From Actinocorallia herbida (lineage in GTDB: Bacteria > Actinomycetota > Actinomycetes > Streptosporangiales > Streptosporangiaceae): a stretch of DNA of 64,000 nt. How positions within the stretch are numbered: the first letter of the stretch is position 1; each line of letters opens with the position of its first letter. The notes under the pieces were generated by a model, which saw nothing but the letters and a program-made list of their open reading frames with translations, searched no databases and was not told the origin of the DNA. Of the stretch, positions 7,195 through 55,852 are shown piece by piece. The translations under genes and the position numbers were made by a program. The DNA is taken from NCBI RefSeq assembly GCF_003751225.1, contig NZ_RJKE01000001.1, forward strand, positions 2,976,001 to 3,040,000, in the 5' to 3' direction.

Positions 7195-8409
7195 CTACGG
7201 GTGGGCGGACTGCGCGGGCGCGGTTCGGGCGCGGAACGAGAGGGCGGCGTAGGTGAGCGCGGCGGCCAACTGGGTCGCGGCGGCGGTCAGGAGGGCCAGG
7301 GGGAGGGAGCGGGTGGCGAGGGGGCCGGCGAGAGCGGCGCCTCCGGCGAAGCCGGTGATCTTGAGGCTGGCGCCGGTGGTGAAGATCTGGCTGAGGAGGT
7401 GGGCGGGCGCCTCGCGGTGGCGGACGGCGAAGAGGGAGGTGAGCTGGGGGCCTTCGCCGAGTCCCGCGACCACGGCGGCGGCGATGAGGGCGGCAGGGTG
7501 GACGGTCGCGGCGAGGAGCAGGGCGGCGGCGAGGACGAGGGTGCTGACCCAAAGGACGGTGTCCGGGCGCATCAGGGCGGGCCACCGGGAGAGGGCGAAG
7601 TTGGCGGCCAGTGCCGAGGCGGCGAGGACGGACAGGAGGAACGCCCCGTGGTCGGCCGAGCCGAAGGCGCGGGCGCCCAGGAGGGGCACGCAGGCGACCA
7701 GGATGCCCTGCCCCGCGCAGGAGACGACCGTGGTCGCCGTCGCGCGGGCCAGCGGCCGGGTGCGGACGATGGCGCGGACTCCGGCGGCGACGTCGGCGCG
7801 GACGGTGGACGAGGAGGGCGGGCGTGGCGGCGGCGAGGGCAGCACCAGCGCCGACGGCAGCGCGAGGCAGATCAGCACGACCGCGACGACCACCGCCGCC
7901 GACGCCCCGGCCGTCCCCGCCACGGCCCCAGCGAGTGCGGGCCCGGCGAGACTCGCCACGTTGAACGTCATCGCGTCGAGCGCGGTCGCGCGCGGCAGCC
8001 CCGCGCGCGGCACGGAGTGCGGCAACTGCGAGGTCCATCCGCCCGACAGCGCGGGACCCAGCAGCCCGGCGCCGAGCGCGACGAGCACGCTCGCCCACAC
8101 CGGAACCCGTCCCAGGCTCACCAGGATGACCGTGAGCGCCCCCGCGTAGACCGCGAACGCCATGGCCAGCAGCCGCCCCGGCCGCGCCGCCCGATCGAGC
8201 AGCGCCCCGAAGACCGGCCCGCCGACCGCCGCCGAGACCGTGATGCCCGCCAACAGCGACGACGCGGACGCGACCGACCCGGTGGCCGCGAGCCCCGCCA
8301 GCAGCAGCGCGGGCCCCGACATCGCATCCCCGGTCCGCGCGGCGACCGCCCCAGGAACATAAGACCACAACGCATACCGCTTACTCACTCGCAGGACGCT
8401 ACCGGTCAT
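7195..8409 (-). CDS. MFS transporter, DHA3-like exporter family
   Basis: A 404-residue integral membrane protein with about 12 hydrophobic segments of alternating Ala/Leu/Val, such as ALLLAGLAATGSVASASSLL near the start and LPLALLTAAATQLAAALTY near the end. The overall shape fits MFS_3/enterobactin-exporter-like drug or metabolite efflux permeases. ATG 8409 is chosen because the first helix begins shortly after; the longer frame to 8574 adds a Pro/Arg-rich stretch not seen in transporters. A perfect 9-bp inverted repeat lies about 30 bases upstream and may be an operator. The substrate cannot be inferred. It is convergent with the ALDH operon. Confidence 0.8.
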   Translation of the reverse strand: MTGSVLRVSKRYALWSYVPGAVAARTGDAMSGPALLLAGLAATGSVASASSLLAGITVSAAVGGPVFGALLDRAARPGRLLAMAFAVYAGALTVILVSLGRVPVWASVLVALGAGLLGPALSGGWTSQLPHSVPRAGLPRATALDAMTFNVASLAGPALAGAVAGTAGASAAVVVAVVLICLALPSALVLPSPPPRPPSSSTVRADVAAGVRAIVRTRPLARATATTVVSCAGQGILVACVPLLGARAFGSADHGAFLLSVLAASALAANFALSRWPALMRPDTVLWVSTLVLAAALLLAATVHPAALIAAAVVAGLGEGPQLTSLFAVRHREAPAHLLSQIFTTGASLKITGFAGGAALAGPLATRSLPLALLTAAATQLAAALTYAALSFRARTAPAQSAHP

Positions 8410-8734: not shown

Positions 8735-9655
8735 ATGGGCATTGATCGTCGTGGGGGTGCGTGGCGGGCGCTGGGCGGGGTGGCGGCGGGGGACGCGCTG
8801 GGGTCGCAGTTCTTCGTGCCGGAGCATCGGGGGGCGTTCGAGCGGCGGGAACCGCCGGAGGGTCCCTGGCAGTGGACCGATGACACGGAGATGGCCTGCG
8901 GGGTCGTTCGAGTGCTCGAGGCGGCCGGGCGGGTCGACCAGGACCTCCTGGCCCGGGTGTTCGCAGAACGCCATGATTTCGACCGGGGATACGGGCCGGG
9001 GACCAACCGTCTGCTGCGCCTGGTGCGGGAGGGCGGGGACTGGCGGAAGCTCGTCCGGGAAGGCTTCGGCGGCCAGGGGTCCTGGGGGAACGGGGCGGCG
9101 ATGCGGGTCGCGCCGCTCGGCGCGTGGTTCGCCGATGATCTCGGGACCGCGGCGGAGCAGGCGGTGCTGTCCGCGGAGGTGACGCACGCGCATCCCGAGG
9201 GCGTCGCCGGGGCGGTGGCCGTCGCCGTGGCGGCCGGTGTCGCCGCGGGCACGGACCGGCTCTCGCCGGGGCGGTTCCTCGACGCGGTCCTGGAGCACGT
9301 GCCCGGAGGCAGGGTCCGGGAGGGCGTCGAGGAGGCTCGGCGGCTGCTCACGATCGCGGACGCCGCGACGGCCGCGGCGGTCCTCGGCAACGGGCGCCAG
9401 GTGGCGGCGCACGACACGGTGCCCTTCTGCCTGTGGGCCGCCGCCCGCCACCTCGACGACTTCGAGGCGGGCTTCTGGGCGACGGCGTCGGCCGGTGGCG
9501 ACGTCGACACCACCTGCGCGATCGTCGGCGGCGTCATCGCCGCGCGGCCGGGGGGCGAGGTTCCCGCGCGCTGGCTGCCGCGCATCGAGGAACTGCCCGA
9601 GTGGGTTCGGGCTCCGCTCCGCGATCGGGAGGAGGTGCCGGACGGAACCGCGTGA
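8735..9655 (+). CDS. ADP-ribosylglycohydrolase family protein
   Basis: A 306-residue DraG-like hydrolase expected to remove ADP-ribose from proteins or small molecules using two metal ions. The metal-ligand motifs are all present: GDALGSQFF near the N-terminus, TDDTEM (about 50-55), GSWGNGAAMRV (about 115-125), and GGDVDTTCAIVGG near residue 250. ATG 8735 is preferred over GTG 8708 because the motif-bearing fold starts here and a TACGCT -10-like box ends seven bases upstream, which would give a leaderless mRNA. It stands alone, with no ADP-ribosyltransferase nearby. Confidence 0.85.
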   Translation: MGIDRRGGAWRALGGVAAGDALGSQFFVPEHRGAFERREPPEGPWQWTDDTEMACGVVRVLEAAGRVDQDLLARVFAERHDFDRGYGPGTNRLLRLVREGGDWRKLVREGFGGQGSWGNGAAMRVAPLGAWFADDLGTAAEQAVLSAEVTHAHPEGVAGAVAVAVAAGVAAGTDRLSPGRFLDAVLEHVPGGRVREGVEEARRLLTIADAATAAAVLGNGRQVAAHDTVPFCLWAAARHLDDFEAGFWATASAGGDVDTTCAIVGGVIAARPGGEVPARWLPRIEELPEWVRAPLRDREEVPDGTA

Positions 9656-11943: not shown

Positions 11944-12780
11944 TCACACCTGCTGGAGCCCGATCACCCGCAGCATGTCGAGCATCGTCGCCCCGGGGGA
12001 TCCCGGCTCGGCCGAGTACACGAGCACGGTCTGGTGGCCGTCCGGGAGCAGCATGACGTCGCAGTCGAGCGAGAACGTGCCCAGGCCGGGGTGCCTGACG
12101 CTCTTGGTCGCAGTACGCCATTGGGAGGAGCGCCCTTCCCGCCAGAGCTCGTCGAACCGGGTGCTGCCGCGACGCAGTTCCGCGATCATCCGGGTCAGGT
12201 CGGGGTCGCCCGGGTACCGGGCCTGTGCGGCGCGCAGCGTGCCGATCGAGGCGCGGGCGGCCGCGTCGTCCTCGTCGGGGCCCGCGGCGACCTGGCAGCG
12301 GCTGCTGCCGAGGAAACGCTGCCAGATGAGGTTGCGCCGTCGCCGCGGCCACGCGGACATGTCGCCCTGCAGCGCCGCCGCGAGGGGGTTCCAGGCCAGC
12401 ACGTCGCCCTTCGCCGACAGCACCAGCACGGGCAGATCCGCCATGCGGTCCAGCAGCCGGAGCACGCTCGGCTGGACGACCATCGCGATGCGCCCGGCCT
12501 GCGGCGGTTCGTGGTCGGCGAGCCGGAACAGCAGGTCGCGGTCGTCGTCGTCGAGCCGCAGGGCCTGCGCCAGCGCGGCGATGACCTGACCGGAGGGCCG
12601 CGGTCCGCGCCCCTGCTCGAGCCGGACGATGTAGTCGACGCTCACGCCCGCGAGCAGGGCCAGTTCCTCGCGGCGCAGACCCGGCACCTGGCGGCGTGTT
12701 CCCGCCGGCAGCCCGACGTCCTGTGGTCGGACACGGGCTCGGGCGGTGCGGAGGATTTCGGCGAGTCCGGCGCGGTTCAC
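11944..12780 (-). CDS. XRE-type regulator with MmyB-like ligand domain
   Basis: A 278-residue regulator. The N-terminal helix-turn-helix (about 34-66) contains LRREELALLAGVSVDYIVRLEQGRGPRPS, the XRE pattern. The C-terminal half, from about residue 107 (VLRLLDRMADLPVLVLSAKGDVLAWNPLAAAL), is the PAS-like MmyB ligand-binding domain, which in structural work binds a fatty-acid-like ligand. The large family is expanded in actinomycetes and often sits next to the SDR it regulates. Here an SDR gene is divergent, starting at 12883, about 100 bases away. Confidence 0.88.
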   Translation of the reverse strand: MNRAGLAEILRTARARVRPQDVGLPAGTRRQVPGLRREELALLAGVSVDYIVRLEQGRGPRPSGQVIAALAQALRLDDDDRDLLFRLADHEPPQAGRIAMVVQPSVLRLLDRMADLPVLVLSAKGDVLAWNPLAAALQGDMSAWPRRRRNLIWQRFLGSSRCQVAAGPDEDDAAARASIGTLRAAQARYPGDPDLTRMIAELRRGSTRFDELWREGRSSQWRTATKSVRHPGLGTFSLDCDVMLLPDGHQTVLVYSAEPGSPGATMLDMLRVIGLQQV

Positions 12781-12882
12781 CGTTCCATCATGCCCGCAGA
12801 CCGGGCAGGCCGGGTGGTACCGCGGGTCCTAGGCCTCGGCGGTCCTGGCGGGCCTTGGGCGGTCGACCCGAGGATCGGTGCC

Positions 12883-13605
12883 ATGACGGAGACGAAGACG
12901 GTGGCCCTGGTCACCGGAGCGAACAAGGGGCTGGGCCGGGAGACCGTGCGCCGCCTGGCCGGCGAGGGATGGCGGGTCTTCCTGGCCGCGCGGGACCGGG
13001 AGCGCGGCGTCCGCGCGGCCGACGAGCTGGCGGGCGCGGGGCTCGCAGTGGAGTTCGTCGAGCTCGACGTGACCTCGGACGAGTCCGTGGCGGCGGCCGC
13101 GAAGGCCGTCGCCGAGCGCGTGGAGCGCCTGGACGTCCTGGTCAACAACGCCGGAGTGGGCGGCCCGATGCTGGATCCGGCCGACATGGACGCCGACGCG
13201 CTCCGGGTGCTGTACGAGGTGAACGTGTTCGGTCAGGTGCGGGTCACCCACGCGTTCCTGCCGTTGCTCCGGAAGTCGGCACAGCCCCGCGTCGTCATGG
13301 TCTCCAGCGGTCTCGCCTCGCTGACGCACGCCGGTGATCCGGCCCGCCCCGAGCACGGCTTTCTGAGCCTGGACTACGCCTCGTCGAAGGCGGCGCTCAA
13401 CATGGTCGTCTCCCAGTACGCCCGGGCGCTGCCCGGGTTCCAGGTCAACGCCGCCGATCCGGGCAACCCGGCCACCGACATGAACCATCACACGGGTGTC
13501 CACACGGTCGAGGAGGGCGCCTCGGCGATCATCAGGCTGGCCACCTTGGACGCCGGTGGGCCGACGGGAGGCTTCTTCGGCAGCGACGGCCCGGTTCCAT
13601 GGTAG
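12883..13605 (+). CDS. Short-chain dehydrogenase/reductase
   Basis: A 240-residue classical SDR. The nucleotide motif TGANKGLG is at 11-18, NNAG at 88-91, and the catalytic Ser141/142, Tyr165 and Lys169 (YASSK) are in place. It reduces or oxidises a carbonyl/alcohol with NAD(P)H; carbonyl-reductase-like SDRs share the ANKGLG form. ATG 12883 is the only start that leaves a normal N-terminus. Divergent from an XRE/MmyB-type regulator, the common partner of such SDRs, and followed after eight bases by a small gene of unknown function. Confidence 0.88.
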   Translation: MTETKTVALVTGANKGLGRETVRRLAGEGWRVFLAARDRERGVRAADELAGAGLAVEFVELDVTSDESVAAAAKAVAERVERLDVLVNNAGVGGPMLDPADMDADALRVLYEVNVFGQVRVTHAFLPLLRKSAQPRVVMVSSGLASLTHAGDPARPEHGFLSLDYASSKAALNMVVSQYARALPGFQVNAADPGNPATDMNHHTGVHTVEEGASAIIRLATLDAGGPTGGFFGSDGPVPW

Positions 13606-13613
13606 GAGTGAAC

Positions 13614-13982
13614 ATGACCAAGATCCTGACGATCGGGCTGCATCCGAGCACGATCGACTACACCGGACATCCCGGACTTGACGCGGCGACGCTCACCGCA
13701 CGGATCGAGCGGGGCGACGCGGCCGTGCGGGCGGCGGGCTTCGACGCGGTGTCCTGCCTGGTCGGCACCGACCCGGACGAGGCTGAGAAGGCCGTCCGCG
13801 AACGGCTGTCCGAGGGGCCCTTCGAGGTGGCCATGATCGGGGGAGGCGTGCGCATGGCCCCCGAGCGCACCCTTCTGTTCGAACGGCTGATCAACGTACT
13901 GGCGGCGACGAATCCCGGAATCCGGTTCTGTTTCAACACCTCGCCGGAGACGACGATCGACGCCCTTCGCCGCTGGGTCTGA
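13614..13982 (+). CDS. Conserved-looking hypothetical protein, co-transcribed with SDR
   Basis: A 122-residue acidic protein with a Rossmann-like rhythm. It has a first strand (KILTIGLHPSTIDY), a later strand and glycine turn (VAMIGGGVRMAP), and a final strand before the C-terminal helix (RFCFNTSPETTIDALRRW). No catalytic motif is evident. TAGGAG lies five bases upstream of ATG 13614. The gene starts eight bases after the SDR stop, so the two are probably co-transcribed and may act together. I do not recognise the family by name. Confidence 0.65.
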   Translation: MTKILTIGLHPSTIDYTGHPGLDAATLTARIERGDAAVRAAGFDAVSCLVGTDPDEAEKAVRERLSEGPFEVAMIGGGVRMAPERTLLFERLINVLAATNPGIRFCFNTSPETTIDALRRWV

Positions 13983-47490: not shown

Positions 47491-47606
47491 ACATGTCGAT
47501 GATACCGCAGGGGCCCTTGACCGCCTTGGAAAACCGGTGGTAGACAGCATGGGCGGGCAATGCTGAGCGACCGCCCAGCATGGAGTGCGCCGTGCGCTCG
47601 CGAGCC

Positions 47607-48815
47607 ATGGAGGGAATGACGGTGGGCACTGAGGAACCGATCCGCTGGGACCCCTACGACCCGGTCATCGGGAAGGACCCCTATCCGGTGTACCGGCGGC
47701 TGCGCGAAGAGGCGCCGCTCTACTACAACGACGCCCATGACTTCTACGCGGTCAGCCGGTACGAGGACCTCGACCGGGGCCTGCCGGACTGGCAGACGTT
47801 CTCTTCGGCGCGCGGCAACATCCTCGAGCTCATCAAGTCGGGCATCGAGATCCCGCCGGGCACCCTCATCTTCGAGGACCCCGACGCGCACGGCATCCAC
47901 CGCCGGCTGCTCACCAGGATGTTCACGCCGCGGCGGATCGGCGCGCTGGAGCCGATGGTCCGCGACTACTGCCGGCGCACCCTCGACCCGCTGGTCGGGG
48001 AGAAGGGCTTCGACCTGGTCGCCGCCGTAGGCACCGAGCTGCCTATGCGCGTCATCAGCGCGCTCCTCGGCATCCCCGACGAGGCGCAGGAGTCCATCCG
48101 CGACTCGGCGGACAAGTTCATCACCACCGAGGACGGCGGTCAGATGGACTTCAGCGCGGGCGCGGTGATGGACACCGAGCAGCTCAGCGCCTACATCGAC
48201 TGGCGGATCAAGAACCCCTCGGACGACCTGGTGACGGAGCTGCTCACCGCCGAGTTCGAGGACGAGCACGGGGTCCGGCGCACCCTGTCCCGCGACGAGG
48301 TGGTCACCTACATGACCGTCGTCGCGGGCGCCGGGAACGAGACGACGGGGCGGCTCATCGGCTGGATCGGCTCCCTGCTGGCCCAGAACCCCGACCAGCG
48401 CCGCGACCTCGTCGCCGACCCGTCCCTGATCCCGAACGCGGTCGAGGAGGTGCTGCGGTACGAGCCCGCGGGCCACGCGATCGCCCGCGCCGTCATGACG
48501 GACCAGGAGTTCCACGGCCAGACGGTCCCGGCGGGCAGCGCCCTGCTGTTCATCGTGGCCGCGGCGAACCGGGACGAACGCCGCTACCCCGACCCGGACC
48601 GCTTCGACGTCCGCCGCAAGATCCGGCACCAGATGACGTTCGGGTACGGCATCCACTACTGCCTCGGGGCCGCCCTCGCCAGGCTGGAAGGCAGGGTGGC
48701 GATGGAGGAGATCCTCAAGCGCTTCCGGGAGTGGGAGGTGGACTGGGACAAGGCCAACCTCGCCTCGACGTCCACGGTCCGCGGCTGGGAGTCGCTCCCG
48801 ATCATCCTGCGGTAG
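47607..48815 (+). CDS. Cytochrome P450
   Basis: A 402-residue P450 with a normal active site: I-helix VAGAGNETTGRLI (acid Glu245 and Thr246), ExxR Glu281-Arg284, and haem loop FGYGIHYCLG (Cys352). The C-terminus STVRGWESLPIIL is common in actinobacterial catabolic P450s. The start is uncertain (47580, 47607 or 47616); I used the central ATG. Divergent from a TetR gene with a likely operator. Its 3' end overlaps the convergent AtuA-like gene by 14 bases. Redox partners are not encoded nearby. Confidence 0.88.
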   Translation: MEGMTVGTEEPIRWDPYDPVIGKDPYPVYRRLREEAPLYYNDAHDFYAVSRYEDLDRGLPDWQTFSSARGNILELIKSGIEIPPGTLIFEDPDAHGIHRRLLTRMFTPRRIGALEPMVRDYCRRTLDPLVGEKGFDLVAAVGTELPMRVISALLGIPDEAQESIRDSADKFITTEDGGQMDFSAGAVMDTEQLSAYIDWRIKNPSDDLVTELLTAEFEDEHGVRRTLSRDEVVTYMTVVAGAGNETTGRLIGWIGSLLAQNPDQRRDLVADPSLIPNAVEEVLRYEPAGHAIARAVMTDQEFHGQTVPAGSALLFIVAAANRDERRYPDPDRFDVRRKIRHQMTFGYGIHYCLGAALARLEGRVAMEEILKRFREWEVDWDKANLASTSTVRGWESLPIILR

Positions 48816-50610
48816 CCGGCCGCCGGTCCAGCAGCTCGACGGGTATGTCCACGACGCGGGCGAGGAGGTACTCGCCCACGGCCTTGCCGACCTGGTCGAC
48901 CCGCAGGTTGCTGGACCCGCCGACGCCGAGGAGCCCGCGCAGCACGAAGTGGACCGCGCGCAGGTGCGGGAACTCGTGCCGGACGATCTCCAGGTCCGCG
49001 GTCTCGGGAAGGAGGCCGCGGATCGCGTCGGTCCCGAGCGCGGCGCGCAGCCAGGGCCACGCCTCGGGGTCCGCGGTCCACACGCCGACGTTGCTGTTGC
49101 CGCCCTTGTCGCCGCTCCGCGCGAAGGCGATCCGGCCGAGCGGCGCCCGCTCGGTCCGGCCCGAGGGGTATGGCGCGGGCTCCGGCTGGACGGGCTGCCC
49201 GGCGAACCCCTGGGTGATCTTGGGCGGTGCGATGCCGATGCGGCGCCCGTCGTCCAGGACCGCCCTGTGCTCGACCGCCTCCAGGGGAAGCAGGCCCGGC
49301 CAGTACTCGATCCGCGGCTGCGGTGCGAGCGCGGGCGCGGCGGCGGTGTCGATGAAGAACCCGGGGACGCTGCCGAGGAACAGCGCGTTGACGCGGGCGG
49401 CGAAGTTCGCGTACTCCAGGGGTGCCCGCTCCTTCGCGGTGGCCATGATCCGCACCGGGACCGTCGCCTCCCACTGGCTGCGCGGGTCCGCGGCGGCGGT
49501 GCCGAGCAGCGTGACGTCGAGGTCCTCGACGCCCGGCGCGGCCAGGTCGCGGATCTGGGCGGCGAGCAGCGCGTGCTTCTCCGCGATGCGCAGGCCGGTG
49601 AGGTAGGCCGTCATGACGATCTGGTGGCCGATCGGCGCGAACAGCGCGACCTTCGTGGTGGGCGGCGGCGCGGACCCGGTCGTGCCGGACACCTCGACGC
49701 GGTCGGGCCCGGCCTGGCGCAGGCGGACGTCCGCGAGATGGACGGTCACGTCGGGATTGAGGTAGTCCGGCCCCTGGATCTCGTAGACGAGCTGGGCCGT
49801 GACGGTGTCGACGGTGACCGCGCCGGGGTGGTCCGCGTGCTTGGTGATGACGCTGGACCCGTCTGCGGCGACCTCGGCGAGGGGGTAGCCGGGCCGGAGC
49901 GCGCCCGGGACGTTCGCGGATCCACCCGGAATCACGGCGAACCCGGTGAAGTTGCCGCCCGTGGCGTGCGGCCCGCACTCGATGATGTGCCCGGCGAGGA
50001 CCGCCCCGGCCAGCGCGTCCCAGGCGTCCTCGGCCCAGCCGTGCCACCAGGCCGCGGGCCCCGAGGTCAGCGACGCGTCGGTGACCCGCCCGCAGATCAC
50101 GATGTCCGCGCCCGCCTCCAGCGCCGCGGCGATGCCTCGGCCGCCGAGGTAGGCGTTGGCGCTGATCGGCTCGGCCCCCCAGGAGGCCAGCGGCGCGCCG
50201 GTGTCCAGGTGCGCGAGGTCGTGCCCGGCCTCCCGCAGCTCCGCCAGATGGGGGAGCAGGTTGTCGCCTTCGATGTGCGCGACCCGCAGCGGCAGGCCCT
50301 CCGTGGAGATCACCGCACGCAGGGCTTCCGCGAGCCCTGCCGGATGGAACGCCCCCGCGTTCGTCACGACCTTGGTCCCACGCTCGGCGATGGCCGCGAG
50401 ATGTGGCCGGATCTGCCCGAGGAAGTACCCGACGTATCCCTTGGCCGGATCCGCCCGGTGCCGCGCCGAAAGCGAGGCGAGCGTGACCTCGGCGAGGTAG
50501 TCCCCGACGAGGACGTCCACCGCATCCCCGGCCATGACCTCGTCCAGCGCGCCATGGCGGTCGCCGAGGTATCCGGAGAAATTGGCGATGCGCACCGGCC
50601 GTCGGGTCAT
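48802..50610 (-). CDS. AtuA-like protein (DUF1446) of acyclic terpene utilisation type
   Basis: A 602-residue cytoplasmic protein. The first 450 residues match the AtuA/DUF1446 core: RIANFSGYLGDRHGALDEV, ASLSARHRADPAKGYVGYF, KVVTNAGAFHPAGLAEAL, GRVTDASLTSGPAAWW, ECGPHATGGNFTGF. The C-terminal about 110 residues start at APLGRIAFARSGDKGGNSNVGV, the small domain usually attached to AtuA. In Pseudomonas the atu genes degrade citronellol and geraniol; AtuA itself has no proven reaction. Here it lies next to a P450, an acyl-CoA dehydrogenase and a prenyl synthase fusion, so a branched isoprenoid acid is an attractive but unproven substrate. Confidence 0.85.
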   Translation of the reverse strand: MTRRPVRIANFSGYLGDRHGALDEVMAGDAVDVLVGDYLAEVTLASLSARHRADPAKGYVGYFLGQIRPHLAAIAERGTKVVTNAGAFHPAGLAEALRAVISTEGLPLRVAHIEGDNLLPHLAELREAGHDLAHLDTGAPLASWGAEPISANAYLGGRGIAAALEAGADIVICGRVTDASLTSGPAAWWHGWAEDAWDALAGAVLAGHIIECGPHATGGNFTGFAVIPGGSANVPGALRPGYPLAEVAADGSSVITKHADHPGAVTVDTVTAQLVYEIQGPDYLNPDVTVHLADVRLRQAGPDRVEVSGTTGSAPPPTTKVALFAPIGHQIVMTAYLTGLRIAEKHALLAAQIRDLAAPGVEDLDVTLLGTAAADPRSQWEATVPVRIMATAKERAPLEYANFAARVNALFLGSVPGFFIDTAAAPALAPQPRIEYWPGLLPLEAVEHRAVLDDGRRIGIAPPKITQGFAGQPVQPEPAPYPSGRTERAPLGRIAFARSGDKGGNSNVGVWTADPEAWPWLRAALGTDAIRGLLPETADLEIVRHEFPHLRAVHFVLRGLLGVGGSSNLRVDQVGKAVGEYLLARVVDIPVELLDRRPATAG

Positions 50611-50682
50611 GGGATTCCTCTCTGAGCACGGCGCCGGGGCGGTGCGCCGGGCTTGCGATGCTAGTCGTGCCGAGCGAAAAAA

Positions 50683-50694
50683 GTCAGGCTTGAC
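50683..50694. promoter_or_regulatory. Small GTCA/TGAC inverted repeat before the TetR gene
   Basis: GTCAGGCTTGAC pairs GTCA with TGAC across four bases, flanked by A-rich and T-rich runs. It lies between the divergent AtuA-like gene (start 50610) and TetR gene (start 50709). The half-sites resemble those of the tandem element at 47465, but the spacing differs. A weak operator candidate. Confidence 0.35.
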
Positions 50695-50708
50695 GGTTTG
50701 TTTCGGCC

Positions 50709-51344
50709 GTGGGCATGATGCCGCGCGTGTCGTCTTCCGCGGCGGGCCGGGTCCCGCAGGGTGAGCGGTCGCAGGCCATGCGCCGGCGGCTGCTCGACGC
50801 GACGGTCAGGTGCCTCGTCGAGTACGGCTGGAGCGGGACGTCCACGGTGCTGGTGTCCGAACGGGCCGGGGTCAGCCGCGGCGCGCAGCTCCACCACTTT
50901 CCGACCAAGAACCACCTGGTGCTCGCCGCCGTCGAGCATCTGTGGGAGTCGCGCGCGGAGGCGCACCGCGCCGCCTTCGCCGCGCTGCCCGACGGCCCGG
51001 ACAAGGTCCACAGGGTCGTGCACCTGCTCGGCGAGCACTTCTCCGGCGACCTCTACACCGCGGCCCTCGAGCTGTGGGTGGCCGCGCGCAGCGACGCCGC
51101 GCTGCACGAGGCGGTCGTCCGGCTGGAGCAGCGGATCGGGCAGGCCGCCCACCGCCGGACGGTCGAGGCCCTCGGCGTCGACGAGTCGGTGCCGGGCGTG
51201 CGCGAACTCGTCCAGGCGACCCTGGACCTCGTGCGCGGCCTCGGCCTCGCCAACACCCTCACCGACGACTCCGCGCGCCGGGCCCGGATCCTCGACCGCT
51301 GGGCGCGCACGCTCGATCAGGCACTGCGCACCGCCACCCCCTGA
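50709..51344 (+). CDS. TetR/AcrR family transcriptional regulator
   Basis: A 211-residue regulator: TSTVLVSERAGVSRGAQLHHFPTKNHLVLAAVEHLWESR forms the helix-turn-helix and linker (about 45-82). The GAQLHHF form belongs to the TetR group with a C-terminal domain seen in fatty-acid or branched-acid regulators. The start may be GTG 50709, ATG 50715 or ATG 50718. Divergent from the AtuA-like gene and followed after 16 bases by an acyl-CoA dehydrogenase, so it likely controls both. Confidence 0.85.
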   Translation: MGMMPRVSSSAAGRVPQGERSQAMRRRLLDATVRCLVEYGWSGTSTVLVSERAGVSRGAQLHHFPTKNHLVLAAVEHLWESRAEAHRAAFAALPDGPDKVHRVVHLLGEHFSGDLYTAALELWVAARSDAALHEAVVRLEQRIGQAAHRRTVEALGVDESVPGVRELVQATLDLVRGLGLANTLTDDSARRARILDRWARTLDQALRTATP

Positions 51345-51360
51345 CCCCCGAGGAGCCCCC

Positions 51361-52512
51361 TTGCGAGCCTGGACCCCCGAGCAGGAACTGCTGCGCGACA
51401 CCGCGCGCCGCTTCACCGAGCGCGAGATCGCGCCCCACCTCGACGCCTGGGAGGACGCGGGCGAGATCCCGCGCGCGCTGCACCGGGAGGCCGCGAAGCA
51501 CGGCCTCATGGGTCTCGGGTTCGCCGAGGACAAGGGCGGCGACGGTGGCACGCTGCTGGACGGCATGGCCGCGCAGGAGGCGATGTTCGAGGCGGGCATG
51601 TCGAGCGGCCTCGCGGCGGGCCTGTTCACCCATGGGATCGCGCTGCCCCACATCGCCGCGCGCGGCAGCGCCGACCTCATCGACCGGTACGTCCGGCCGA
51701 CCCTCGCGGGCGAACTGATCGGCGCGCTCGGCATCACCGAGCCCGGCGGCGGCTCCGACGTCGGCGCGCTGCGCACGACCGCGGTCCGCGACGGAGACCA
51801 CTATGTCGTCAACGGGGCCAAGACCTTCATCACCAGCGGCGTCCGCGCCGACTTCATCACCACCGCGGTCCGGACGGGTGGGCCGGGCTCGGGCGGCGTC
51901 AGCCTGCTCATCGTCGACAAGGACACGCCGGGCCTGACCGTCGACCGGGCGCTGGCCAAGATGGGCTGGCGCTGCTCCGACACCGCGGAACTGTCCTTCG
52001 TGGACGTGCGGGTGCCGGTGTCCCATCTCGTCGGCGAGGAGAACGCGGGCTTCGCCTACATCGCCGAGCAGTTCGTGGTGGAGCGGCTCGGCCTGGCCGT
52101 CCACGCCTACGGCATCGCCGCCCGGTCGCTCGCCCTCACCGCGGCCTACTGCCGGGACCGCGCGACGTTCGGGGCCCCGCTCGTCAGCCGCCAGGTCGTC
52201 CGGCACAAGCTCGTGGAGATGCACCGGCAGGTCGAGGTCGCCCGCACCTACGCCCTTTCCGTCGCCGAACGCCATGTCTCGGGCGGCCTGGACGCCGATG
52301 TGATCGCCGCGGCCTGCCTCGCCAAGCAGACCGCCGTCGAGTGCGCCACGCACGTCTGCCACGAGGCGGTCCAGCTGCACGGCGGCACCGGCTACATGCA
52401 CGGCACCGAGGTCGAGCGGCACTACCGCGACGCCCGGCTCCTGCCCATCGGCGGCGGCGCCACCGAGGTGCTCACCGACCTCGCCGCGAAGCTCCTCGGC
52501 TACACGCCCTGA
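51361..52512 (+). CDS. Acyl-CoA dehydrogenase
   Basis: A 383-residue FAD flavoprotein: ALGITEPGGGSDVGALRT, NGAKTFITSG, MGWRCSDTAELSFVDVRVP, VQLHGGTGYMHGTEVERHYRDARLLPIGGG. It introduces a double bond into an acyl-CoA. It starts with TTG 51361, with GAGGAG upstream, directly after the TetR gene. The terminal segment reads IGGGATEV, the type common in actinobacterial FadE enzymes for branched or bulky substrates. Grouped with AtuA-like and P450 genes. Its stop is only five bases from the end of the convergent fusion gene. Confidence 0.92.
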   Translation: MRAWTPEQELLRDTARRFTEREIAPHLDAWEDAGEIPRALHREAAKHGLMGLGFAEDKGGDGGTLLDGMAAQEAMFEAGMSSGLAAGLFTHGIALPHIAARGSADLIDRYVRPTLAGELIGALGITEPGGGSDVGALRTTAVRDGDHYVVNGAKTFITSGVRADFITTAVRTGGPGSGGVSLLIVDKDTPGLTVDRALAKMGWRCSDTAELSFVDVRVPVSHLVGEENAGFAYIAEQFVVERLGLAVHAYGIAARSLALTAAYCRDRATFGAPLVSRQVVRHKLVEMHRQVEVARTYALSVAERHVSGGLDADVIAAACLAKQTAVECATHVCHEAVQLHGGTGYMHGTEVERHYRDARLLPIGGGATEVLTDLAAKLLGYTP

Positions 52513-52516
52513 CGCC

Positions 52517-54772
52517 TCACTCCCGCTCGCGCTCGGCGGCGTAGGAGCCCAGCGCGCGGACGAGGACGGCATGGTGCGTGTGCGGAAGGAGGCCCTGGAG
52601 GGGCTGCCAGGCCCGGTCCACCAGCCCGCGCGCCTCGTCCGTGCAGGCCTGGACGGCGCCGTGCCCTTCCAGGACCGCGGCGATCTCCCGGACGGCCTGG
52701 GTGTCGGCCCGGCCGTCGCGGACGGTGTGCCAGATCTCGCGGACCAGCCCCCGGGGGACCAGCGCGACCGCGTGCGCGAGCGGCATCGTGACCTTGCCCG
52801 CGTGAAGGTCCTCGGCGGCGTGCTTGGTGGCGACGCGGCCGCCGGCGGGGTCCGGGGCGGTGAGGCCGCGCAGGTCCATGACGTCGTCGCTGATCTGGTA
52901 GGCGAGCCCGACCGCCTCGAAGTAGGCGCCGAGCGCGCGGTACGTGTCGCCCGTCGCCCCGGCGATCAGCGCGCCGATCTCGGCGAGGCCCCGGACCGGC
53001 GTCGCGGTCTTGAGCAGGTGGACGGTCCGGATCCGGCGCAGCAGCGCCTCGGCGTCGCCGGTCTCGACCGCCGCGTCCATCGCGGCCCGGTGCCCCGCGA
53101 TGTCCAGGGCCTGGCCCGCGTGCCCGGCCCGCATGACCCGCAGATACGTCTCGTAGACGTGGCGGCGCAGCAGGTCGTCGTCGGGCAGGACGTCGCGAAG
53201 CACCTGGTCCAGGACGAAGTAGGCGGCCGTCCCCGCGTTGATCGCCGCCGCGTCGCCGTACACGCTGTGCACGGACGGCACGCCGCGGCGGGTGGGGGAG
53301 CGGTCCTCGACGTCGTCGACGATGAGGTTGCCGGTGTGCAGCACCTCGATCGCGCCGAGCAGTGGCCGGTAGGGCTCGCTGTCCACGCCGAACAACTCGA
53401 TCGCGGCGGTCGCGATGTAGGCGCGCAGGCTCTTGCCGAGGCCGTCGGCGGCGTGCCGGAGGGGGCGGACGAGGGCGGCGTGGAGGTCGGCGGCGAGGTC
53501 CGGATCGAGTGCCTCCGGCCGGTCCGAGAGGCCCGCGAGCGCGGCCAGCGCCGACGGGTCGGGCCGGTCGGGGAGCAGGCGGCGGATCTCCTGCCCGGTG
53601 ACCTCGCGGGTCCGGGCGACATAGCGCTCGATGTCCCCGATCCGGTTGGCCGGGACGATCTCGGCGAGCCCCCGCCCCGTCACCGGCCGCCCCGCCATCG
53701 TGCCCTGGGCTTCGACATGGGCGGCGAGGGCGCCGGTCCGAAAGACCAGCGAGCGCACCTCCTGCGGGAACCACGCCCGGACGCGCAGGGCGGCCTCGTG
53801 CCCGGGGACGTCAAGCTCCCAGACCGTGTCATAAGTGTTGAAAGTGGCCAGGGAGGTCCACGGCTCCGCGCCCATGAGGGAGGCCTTGGCCTCGTGGCGC
53901 TCCCCGTCGGGGGAGCACAGGACGGCGCGGCAGTCCCGCGGCTCGGTCGCGCCGGTGACGACGTCGGTGCGGCCCGCGGTGAAGACGGAGAGCTCCCAGC
54001 CGTTGTCCAGACGGAGGGCGGTCCGGGCGCACGACCAGTCGGCGCCGTCCTGGCCGTCGGGGACATGCCAGGCGTCGCCGAAGGAGTGCTCGTACCAGGC
54101 CTCGCCGGTCACCTCGGCGGTGCGCCCGCCGCGCCGGAGGCCGCCCTCGACCGTCAGCCGGGGGACGAAGTAGGTGTACAGCCAGCCCGGGACGTCGTCG
54201 TCCGTGCCGACGGTCTGGGTCACGGCGCCCTTCCGCGGGGCCAGCCGCAGGGAGAACGCGCAGCCCGTCCCGTCGGCCTCGATCCGGTAGGCGCCGTCGG
54301 GGTCCTTGCGCAGCCGGGCCACCCCGCCGAAGTCCAGGTCGAGGCCGCCCAGCCCGATCCGCGCGGGCCTGGGCAGAAGCCGGTCGGGAAGCGGCGGCTC
54401 TTCGGCGGAGGACGCCAGGAACGCCCGGCGGACGCGCGGGTCGGTGGCCGGGTCGGTCGCGGCGAGCAACCGGGACAGTTCGAGGCTCTCCCGGTCCAGC
54501 CACGACGCGCCCGACTCGCCGGTCATGGACGGGCGGGCGCGGTCGCCGAGCTGCCAGTACACCGCGTGCGCGTCCAGCGGGGTCCCGTCGGGCCGGGTGC
54601 CGCCCTGCCGCAGGAAGGCGATGACGAGTCCGTGCTCGGCGGCCCCGTGGTGCAGCCGGGCGGTGAACCACCACCGCTCGGTGCCGCAACCGCGATGCGG
54701 TGCGTCGTGCACGGCGAGGTCGGGGACCGCCCCCGGCACCGGCCAGTCGGCCCGCCACAGCTTCCCCGCCAT
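52517..54772 (-). CDS. Fusion protein: CrtC/AttH-type lipocalin domain + trans-polyprenyl diphosphate synthase
   Basis: A 751-residue two-domain protein. Residues 1 to about 370 match the CrtC/AttH lipocalin-like family of carotenoid 1,2-hydratases and relatives, with GEAWYEHSFGDAWHV (223-237) as the hallmark. Residues about 400-751 are a complete trans-prenyltransferase: GKSLRAY (446-452), first Asp motif DDVEDRSPTRRG (486-497), second Asp motif SDDVMD (628-633) after YQI. Such a synthase chains isopentenyl units; the fused lipocalin domain could hydrate, cyclise or bind the product. ATG 54772 has AGGACGGGG upstream; no stop or frameshift lies between domains, so it is a true fusion. Divergent from the DUF6230/DUF6114 pair. 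Confidence 0.85.
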   Translation of the reverse strand: MAGKLWRADWPVPGAVPDLAVHDAPHRGCGTERWWFTARLHHGAAEHGLVIAFLRQGGTRPDGTPLDAHAVYWQLGDRARPSMTGESGASWLDRESLELSRLLAATDPATDPRVRRAFLASSAEEPPLPDRLLPRPARIGLGGLDLDFGGVARLRKDPDGAYRIEADGTGCAFSLRLAPRKGAVTQTVGTDDDVPGWLYTYFVPRLTVEGGLRRGGRTAEVTGEAWYEHSFGDAWHVPDGQDGADWSCARTALRLDNGWELSVFTAGRTDVVTGATEPRDCRAVLCSPDGERHEAKASLMGAEPWTSLATFNTYDTVWELDVPGHEAALRVRAWFPQEVRSLVFRTGALAAHVEAQGTMAGRPVTGRGLAEIVPANRIGDIERYVARTREVTGQEIRRLLPDRPDPSALAALAGLSDRPEALDPDLAADLHAALVRPLRHAADGLGKSLRAYIATAAIELFGVDSEPYRPLLGAIEVLHTGNLIVDDVEDRSPTRRGVPSVHSVYGDAAAINAGTAAYFVLDQVLRDVLPDDDLLRRHVYETYLRVMRAGHAGQALDIAGHRAAMDAAVETGDAEALLRRIRTVHLLKTATPVRGLAEIGALIAGATGDTYRALGAYFEAVGLAYQISDDVMDLRGLTAPDPAGGRVATKHAAEDLHAGKVTMPLAHAVALVPRGLVREIWHTVRDGRADTQAVREIAAVLEGHGAVQACTDEARGLVDRAWQPLQGLLPHTHHAVLVRALGSYAAERERE

Positions 54773-54854: not shown

Positions 54855-55478
54855 TTGCGAAGCCGCGGCCGGCGGAGGCGGCCACAGCCCCGGCCGTCCA
54901 TCCGCCCGCGCCGCTTCGCCGCGGTGCTCGTCCCGTCGCTGGCGCTCGGCGGCGTCCTCGCCGCGGCGGTCGGGCAGGGCGCGCTCGCCGCCTCCTTCGC
55001 CGTGTCCGGGCGTGACATGAAGGTCTCCGCCGACCGGATCGAGGGCACCGGCTACGTCACCTATCCGTCCGTCGCCCGTTCCGCCGACGGCACGGAGCAC
55101 GCGGTCACCGTGCTCGCGGTGAAGACGGCCCGGGTGCGCGCGCTGTGCCAGTCGTCGGTTCTCGACACGCCGCTCGGACGCTACGTCCTCAGGCTGAGCG
55201 CCGCGCCGGACGGCCCGCCCGTCCGGGTCAGCGACCTCGCGCTCTCGGCGACCTCGATCGACGCCGACCTCGGCTTCACCAGCCTCCAGCTCAACCGGGA
55301 CGCCGCCTCCCTGGACGCGGTGCCCGGCTACAGCGGGGCCCCGGGCCACTACGGAATCCAGGCGCTCGGCTTCGCCGTCACGAACGTCCGGGTGCGGTCG
55401 TGGTCGGTCTTCAGCAGCTCGATCCACGTGAAGGGCCTGCGGCTCGCCGTCGGCCGCGACGAGGCGGAGTGCTTCTGA
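54855..55478 (+). CDS. DUF6230 family exported/anchored protein
   Basis: A 207-residue protein starting with TTG 54855, with GGGGAGG nine bases upstream. An Arg-rich N-terminus (MRSRGRRRRPQPRPSIRPRR) precedes one hydrophobic segment (FAAVLVPSLALGGVLAAAVG) that works as signal or anchor. The rest is beta-rich: LAASFAVSGRDMKVSADRIEGTGYV through IHVKGLRLAVGRDEAECF. This is the DUF6230 pattern, sometimes mislabelled cholesterol esterase; no catalytic residues are visible. Coupled by a TGATG overlap to a DUF6114 membrane gene, its regular partner. Role unknown, probably envelope. Confidence 0.85.
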   Translation: MRSRGRRRRPQPRPSIRPRRFAAVLVPSLALGGVLAAAVGQGALAASFAVSGRDMKVSADRIEGTGYVTYPSVARSADGTEHAVTVLAVKTARVRALCQSSVLDTPLGRYVLRLSAAPDGPPVRVSDLALSATSIDADLGFTSLQLNRDAASLDAVPGYSGAPGHYGIQALGFAVTNVRVRSWSVFSSSIHVKGLRLAVGRDEAECF

Positions 55479-55852
55479 TGGGTCTGCGCGCCTGGGTCGA
55501 CGGCCGTCCCTTCGCGGCGGGCCTCCTCGCCGTCCTCGCCGGCGCCGAGATCCTGCTGACGCCCGTCGTCGGCGCGGGGATCCTCGTCCATACCGGGCTC
55601 GCCGGACAGCTCAGCTTCCTGCTCGGCCTTCTCCTCGTCGTCTTCGGCCTGCTCTTCTGGACGGCCCCTTCCCTCCGCGTGGTGGTCGGCGCCCTGACGA
55701 TCGCCGTCGGGCTCGCGTCCTTCCTCACCGCCAACCTCGGCGGCTTCCTGGTCGGGCTGCTGCTCGCCCTCGTCGGCGGGGCCGCGGGCATCTCCTGGGC
55801 GCCCGCCGAGGTCCGCCCTCCCGGGCGAGGCCGGCACCGGTCGGCCGTCTGA
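55478..55852 (+). CDS. DUF6114 family membrane protein
   Basis: A 124-residue protein with four membrane helices (FAAGLLAVLAGAEILLTPVV, FLLGLLLVVFGLLFWTA, VVVGALTIAVGLASFLTA and LVGLLLALVGGAAGISW) and a charged C-terminus (EVRPPGRGRHR). The pattern and the company of DUF6230 identify DUF6114. ATG 55478 overlaps the preceding stop by one base. The pair is widespread in filamentous actinomycetes and its function is unknown; it may form a small envelope complex. Confidence 0.82.
   Translation: MGLRAWVDGRPFAAGLLAVLAGAEILLTPVVGAGILVHTGLAGQLSFLLGLLLVVFGLLFWTAPSLRVVVGALTIAVGLASFLTANLGGFLVGLLLALVGGAAGISWAPAEVRPPGRGRHRSAV

Follow-up and report, generated by a model that had tools for sequence, protein, structure and literature searches.

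A conserved fusion of an AttH/CrtC-type double lipocalin with a trans-prenyl diphosphate synthase in Actinocorallia herbida, and its possible place in isoprenoid export

Actinocorallia herbida carries a gene whose single open frame joins an AttH/CrtC-type double lipocalin to a complete trans-prenyl diphosphate synthase, and the same two-domain frame recurs in other actinobacteria, in a second phylum and in cyanobacteria. We propose, with a probability of roughly one half, that the protein is a prenyl (probably GGPP) synthase whose lipocalin half receives the product, either for modification or for hand-over, as part of an isoprenoid export pathway. The gene lies in the window, which here means the whole 64,000-nucleotide stretch of contig NZ_RJKE01000001.1 that was analysed, and its features are collected in Table 1.

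Table 1. Position of the fusion gene, its parts and the divergent gene pair in the window
Feature	Position	Strand	Basis or remark
Lipocalin–prenyl diphosphate synthase fusion CDS	52517..54772	-	single open frame, 751 aa
AttH/CrtC-type double lipocalin half, residues 1-378	53639..54772	-	Pfam PF07143/PF17186; AlphaFold2 model; 2ich/7a0t matches
Linker helix and trans-prenyl diphosphate synthase half, residues 379-751	52520..53638	-	PF00348; 1wy0 match
Asp-rich motif 1, DDVED, residues 486-490	53303..53317	-	D486, D487 and D490 invariant in 38 fusions
Asp-rich motif 2, DDVMD, residues 629-633	52874..52888	-	motif position; 38-fusion alignment
Codons of residues 225-231 (AWYEHSF), including Glu228	54080..54100	-	alignment with relatives; PMC4717167
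DUF6230 gene, divergent, 82 bp from fusion start	54855..55478	+	PF19741, E 7e-36
DUF6114 gene, overlapping the DUF6230 stop	55478..55852	+	PF19609, E 6e-27

Results

Domains and folds of the fused protein

The frame begins with an ATG at 54772 and ends with a stop codon at 52517-52519 on the minus strand; an in-frame GTG stands immediately before the ATG, so the true start may differ by a few codons. When the protein was searched against Pfam, polyprenyl_synt (PF00348) was matched at residues 433-694 (E 1.6e-39, 136 bits against a 27-bit cut-off) and CrtC (PF07143) at residues 159-232 (E 4e-7, 31 bits against a cut-off of 22.5), together with Lipocalin_9 (PF17186) at residues 239-371 (E 2e-5), whose 25.4 bits lie slightly below the gathering score of 26.2; these were the only matches, and no terpene cyclase domain was detected in this search. 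The best NCBIfam match, the family 2 encapsulin polyprenyl transferase cargo (NF041169), was rejected, since it scored 112 bits against a cut-off of 450. An AlphaFold2 model built with 19 homologues had a mean pLDDT of 88 and a pTM of 0.89, the latter suggesting that the two predicted halves are held in a fixed arrangement; the modelled chain is largely beta to approximately residue 373 and helical from residue 381. Comparison with solved structures matched the N-terminal half to AttH NE1406 (2ich; Z 33.1 over 311 residues, 20% identity) and to kievitone hydratase (7a0t; Z 29.8), and the C-terminal half to GGPP synthase 1wy0 (Z 34.3) as well as to polyprenyl synthases. The fused protein therefore has the two lipocalin-like barrels that mark the AttH/CrtC superfamily, and the Pfam score, two Asp-rich motifs and all-helical fold that mark trans-isoprenyl diphosphate synthases. 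The initial annotation had described a lipocalin domain and a complete trans-prenyltransferase in one uninterrupted frame, with intact Asp-rich motifs at residues 486-490 and 629-633; both descriptions hold, the motifs are found at those residues, and the lipocalin fold on which this account depended is present in the predicted structure of the first half. That annotation gave no strand for the gene, and it mentioned neither the exporter neighbours nor the relatives with glycosyltransferase and sulfotransferase nor the other phyla.

Spread and origin of the fusion

Among the 299 genomes of the window's family, the N-terminal half scored strongly in 22, nearly always in frames of at least 700 aa, and 20 complete fusions from this family were taken into the alignment. 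A scan for relatives that used generic synthase motifs returned almost only stand-alone synthases, plus one fusion (L073) in a metagenome-assembled genome labelled Proteobacteria; within the phylum of that genome, which is probably Myxococcota, 26 of 189 genomes contain the fusion (referred to below as myxobacterial-type). Two-domain fusions were also present in two genomes of one cyanobacterial order, and on a plasmid of Streptomyces canus. When the window's phylum was sampled with the fusion profile, the window's own genome was the only match, even though the S. canus plasmid carries a fusion. In one fusion (L057 in G286) a frameshift at approximately 9173-9178 separates the two halves, either a sequencing error or a real split, and the contig of G303 ends inside the fusion gene.

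The two-domain frame is intact in 37 other aligned loci and in further genomes, so chance and misassembly are excluded. The idea that two unrelated genes were joined accidentally or in assembly draws on a single observation, the absence of the fusion from the two other searched species of the genus, and is refuted by its presence in the family, in the second phylum, in cyanobacteria and on the Streptomyces plasmid, leaving it with practically no probability. Conservation across genomes was thus the outcome of the survey, in place of the unfused homologues or local assembly error that had been considered at the outset.

In a tree of synthase halves, the fused proteins grouped in one clade that excluded 28 stand-alone synthases (SH-aLRT 100), which suggests a single fusion event. 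Two stand-alone Streptomyces synthases nested inside the fused clade, and the tree suggests that the lipocalin half was lost later in these two lineages. The nested synthases are encoded by S. clavuligerus pSCL4 (L213:6001-7056), where neither a lipocalin half nor the ABC pair described below was found in the surrounding 6 kb, and by Streptomyces NBC_01431 (L201:8028-9053). A conjugative plasmid of Nitrosomonas stercoris (L200:8365-11870) encodes a 649-aa protein with a synthase half of the fusion clade, followed by a flavin monooxygenase; the N-terminal half of the 649-aa protein gave no Pfam match and belongs to no recognisable lipocalin family.

The synthase half

The aspartates of both motifs (D486, D487 and D490; D629 and D630) and the linker proline P401 are invariant in the 38 aligned fusions, and the lysines are conserved. 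Actinobacterial, myxobacterial-type and cyanobacterial members all retain the synthase motifs, the second reading DDVxN in most relatives of the latter two kinds. With a consensus-like fragment from the alignment as query, used only to rank the nearest solved synthases, the sequences closest around the first motif came from human and yeast GGPP synthases and from the prenyltransferase (PT) domains of bifunctional fungal terpene synthases. Likeness to the type III GGPP synthases and fungal PT domains extends to a first Asp-rich motif (FARM) of the form DDxxD without insertion, to the surrounding MLHTxSLxxDDxxDxSxxRRG, and to the second Asp motif, the lysines, the fold and the sequence match, although the fused synthases make up a separate clade, bacterial throughout, and their partner is an N-terminal lipocalin rather than the class I or class II terpene cyclase of the fungal chimeras. 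The residues before the FARM are small, and together with Tyr518, Phe519 and His551 they resemble those of type III GGPP synthases; we take these three residues to match the chain-length floor positions of yeast GGPP synthase, and use the match as a lead only. Judged from these residues, the product is most likely C20 GGPP.

Exporter genes beside the fusion

In 10 actinobacterial loci the fusion is followed on its own strand, after 15-114 bp, by genes for an ABC ATPase and permease; 8 such loci have an MMPL transporter gene downstream, in the opposite orientation. The ABC permease is about 270-300 aa long and has no Pfam match, and an orthologous ABC pair (62-65% identity for the ATPase, 48-49% for the permease) flanks both the S. 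canus fusion and the stand-alone NBC_01431 synthase. In the synthase tree, the window fusion falls within the ABC clade (clade A), yet ABC genes are missing beside it, and a search of the window genome for the clade-A permease found no recognisable copy. At locus L054, no recognisable exporter of these types stands beside the fusion. LolD-like and LolA-like genes are located near the L073 fusion; among the other myxobacterial-type loci, LolD/FtsX genes are found in about one third, not adjacent and mostly several kb away. Stand-alone AttH genes come directly after genes for an ABC ATPase and an FtsX-type permease, and the published gene context of NE1406 agrees with this (PMC2954199).

Further genes accompany some of these loci. 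In five loci of the MMPL clade (clade B), the MMPL gene has as its neighbour a gene for a protein of about 200 aa that is probably secreted and matches no Pfam family (e.g., L068:5541-6191). About ten of the myxobacterial-type loci have a conserved gene that fits no known family, located approximately 150-1060 bp upstream of the fusion and on the same strand (e.g., L177:11349-12731).

In the window itself, the fusion is faced by the DUF6230 and DUF6114 genes. The same divergent pair occupies the same place in a member of another genus (L053; 65% identity for DUF6230, DUF6114 at 7958-8281), whose 11.8 Mb genome has a single DUF6230 gene, the window genome having two. Since L053 shares the placement and has its only DUF6230 gene there, coincidence is unlikely, and the pair may serve the product of the fusion. 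The initial annotation had suggested that the pair may use or carry this product, and the linkage gains some support from the L053 arrangement. No functional paper on DUF6230 or DUF6114 was found in the open literature. Genes for a P450, AtuA (acyclic terpene utilisation), a TetR regulator and an acyl-CoA dehydrogenase adjoin the fusion on its other side (window positions 47580-52512), the last of them convergent with the fusion and ending 5 bp from its stop; the proximity of a terpene/fatty-acid breakdown cluster to a prenyl synthase may be a coincidence. No carotenoid gene is present among the neighbours annotated at 45.6-60.4 kb of the window.

The active site of the lipocalin half

The CrtC enzyme RgCrtC requires D268, the proton donor, as well as H239, W241 and Y266 (PMC4717167), and it also requires W110, W283 and W285, changes of Trp to Ala or Phe being crippling (PMC12402844). 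These residues were mapped onto the fusions by motif and spacing, the alignment containing no CrtC sequence. On this mapping, D268 corresponds in the myxobacterial-type proteins to the Asp of GWYDHEFG, and W283 and W285 to a GWNW pair 15 and 17 residues further on (exact in L196), and none of the 21 myxobacterial-type and cyanobacterial members has lost any of the three equivalents. The corresponding window residues, mapped in the same way, are Glu228, Cys248 and Arg250, which leaves the CrtC catalytic set incomplete, and the positions equivalent by spacing to H239 and W241 are Tyr and Phe even in the conserved relatives, and are not His and Trp in the window. Because the acid and Trp set is intact in the sister phyla and altered in actinobacteria, an acid site that worked was probably present in the ancestor and was changed or lost in the actinobacteria, which kept the lipocalin domain in frame.

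The residue that replaces the acid is itself well conserved. Glu228 is shared by every member of the window's clade (12 of 12; 13 of 13 with S. canus), amid variable neighbouring residues, which argues for retained acid chemistry over mere binding and so counts against the hand-over view of the window protein. It would fit a truly bifunctional enzyme, a bacterial counterpart of the fungal chimeric terpene synthases, in which Glu228 donates the proton and the lipocalin hydrates or cyclises the chain made by the synthase half. The CrtC-like site in the sister phyla, the fold matches to kievitone hydratase and AttH, and the Trp equivalents, which come and go in the window's clade with one or both kept in several members, are in keeping with such an enzyme. 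Nevertheless, we consider it unlikely for the window protein, in which both Trp equivalents that RgCrtC cannot do without are replaced, the H239 and W241 equivalents are absent, and the actinobacterial loci have no tailoring enzymes nearby; in addition, the members of clade B, the sister actinobacterial clade, have exchanged the acid for Gln or Arg, some with a deletion beside it, and yet retain the domain. Of the initial suggestion that the protein may make and then modify a prenyl product, the lipocalin fold and the complete synthase are supported; CrtC-like hydration or cyclisation is weakened by the three window residues, by the Gln or Arg of clade B and by the Streptomyces synthases that have no lipocalin half.

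Loss of the acid in clade B could also mean that the actinobacterial lipocalin is a mere structural or oligomerisation appendage, the decaying relic of a bifunctional ancestor, so that only the synthase and the exporter matter. The N-terminal half diverges faster than the C-terminal half, that of the N. stercoris protein has no Pfam match, and in Streptomyces NBC_01431 the synthase alone stands beside the orthologous ABC pair, all as a relic would have it. However, only one complete actinobacterial member lacks an in-frame N-terminal half of about 370 residues, 29 N-terminal positions besides Glu228 are invariant across the window's clade plus S. canus, and dN/dS was below 1 in every pair tested, although its absolute values are unreliable because the extreme GC content saturates the method. 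We regard a relic as improbable.

Four-domain relatives and tailoring genes

Four-domain homologues of 1509 aa are encoded by a plasmid of Tolypothrix PCC 7601 and by L195 of the second phylum, with end-to-end homology (36%) and with the domain order sulfotransferase, glycosyltransferase (EryCIII/GT28 type), CrtC/Lipocalin_9 and polyprenyl synthase. The Tolypothrix gene is flanked by DevBCA-type exporter genes (DevC, an ATPase and a membrane-fusion protein). A sulfatase gene flanks the L195 gene, and beyond a methyltransferase lies an undecaprenyl-diphosphate-synthase-like cis-prenyltransferase (L195:4597-6216 and 12725-13654). In the cyanobacterial two-domain loci, the fusion is followed by separate UDP-glycosyltransferase, sulfotransferase and P450 genes (L209), or by FkbM methyltransferase and glycosyltransferase genes (L208). 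No glycosyltransferase or sulfotransferase homologues were found near the actinobacterial fusions at E under 1e-4. Domains that are fused in one lineage and encoded by neighbouring genes in another are a classic sign of a shared pathway, and the glycosyltransferase and sulfotransferase show both arrangements here; these members therefore appear to serve the synthesis of decorated isoprenoids, and not housekeeping prenyl supply.

Discussion

In the pathway that we propose, the C-terminal half would produce an all-trans prenyl diphosphate, most likely C20 GGPP, and the AttH-type double lipocalin, held on the synthase by the conserved linker, would receive the prenyl chain. In the myxobacterial-type and cyanobacterial proteins, the lipocalin probably protonates this chain, and the alcohol that results, hydrated or cyclised, could then be decorated by the glycosyltransferase and sulfotransferase, fused or encoded next door. 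Given the altered active site in the window's actinobacterial branch, the lipocalin there more likely binds the prenyl product and hands it over; any acid chemistry that it keeps would be of an altered kind, based on Glu. The product would leave by the neighbouring exporter, whether ABC, MMPL or, in the window's lineage, possibly DUF6230/DUF6114. Several observations weigh against this pathway: the clade-A permease is missing from the window genome, which bears on the export route, LolD/FtsX genes are distant in the myxobacterial-type loci, L054 has no recognisable exporter of these types beside its fusion, and the actinobacterial fusions lack glycosyltransferase and sulfotransferase neighbours. 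A more specific version can be put forward tentatively for the family as a whole, in which the prenyl synthase feeds the lipocalin, and the lipocalin works as a non-canonical terpene hydratase or cyclase whose reaction starts with protonation. Glycosyltransferase and sulfotransferase modules, supplied in cis or in trans, and an exporter dedicated to the product would complete this route, and the end products would be secreted sulfated prenyl glycosides; the window protein would then be a derived member, with Glu-based or lost chemistry.

Known systems resemble parts of this arrangement. AttH (NE1406, of AttEFGH-type ABC operons) has the same double-lipocalin fold as the N-terminal half, and like stand-alone AttH, which follows ABC ATPase and permease genes, many of the fusions adjoin ABC genes; AttH differs in standing alone, without the prenyl synthase partner that the lipocalin has here, and the permeases beside the actinobacterial fusions are of a different type. 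CrtC and kievitone hydratase share the fold, the Pfam families and, by spacing, the Asp268, Trp283 and Trp285 equivalents of the myxobacterial-type and cyanobacterial fusions, but these are replaced in the window, and its annotated neighbours include no carotenoid genes. In carotenoid glycoside pathways, a hydratase acts first and a glycosyltransferase follows, and the four-domain version suggests a similar order of prenyl chain, possible hydration and glycosylation; in contrast to those pathways, it is a single polypeptide, with a sulfotransferase and without phytoene synthase.

We found no paper describing a lipocalin–prenyl synthase fusion in the open literature that was searched. Each half belongs to a known superfamily, and the results point to the fusion as an undescribed route by which modified isoprenoids would be made and exported. 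In NCBI annotation such proteins are named 'polyprenyl synthetase family protein', and under this generic name a conserved two-to-four-domain enzyme of at least three phyla stays hidden. The fusion would place AttH-type lipocalins, which are found beside ABC transporters, directly on isoprenoid substrates. If the lipocalin acts on the prenyl chain, it would be a terpene-modifying enzyme that escapes searches for terpene cyclases, joined to the synthase that supplies its substrate and in many cases encoded next to an exporter.
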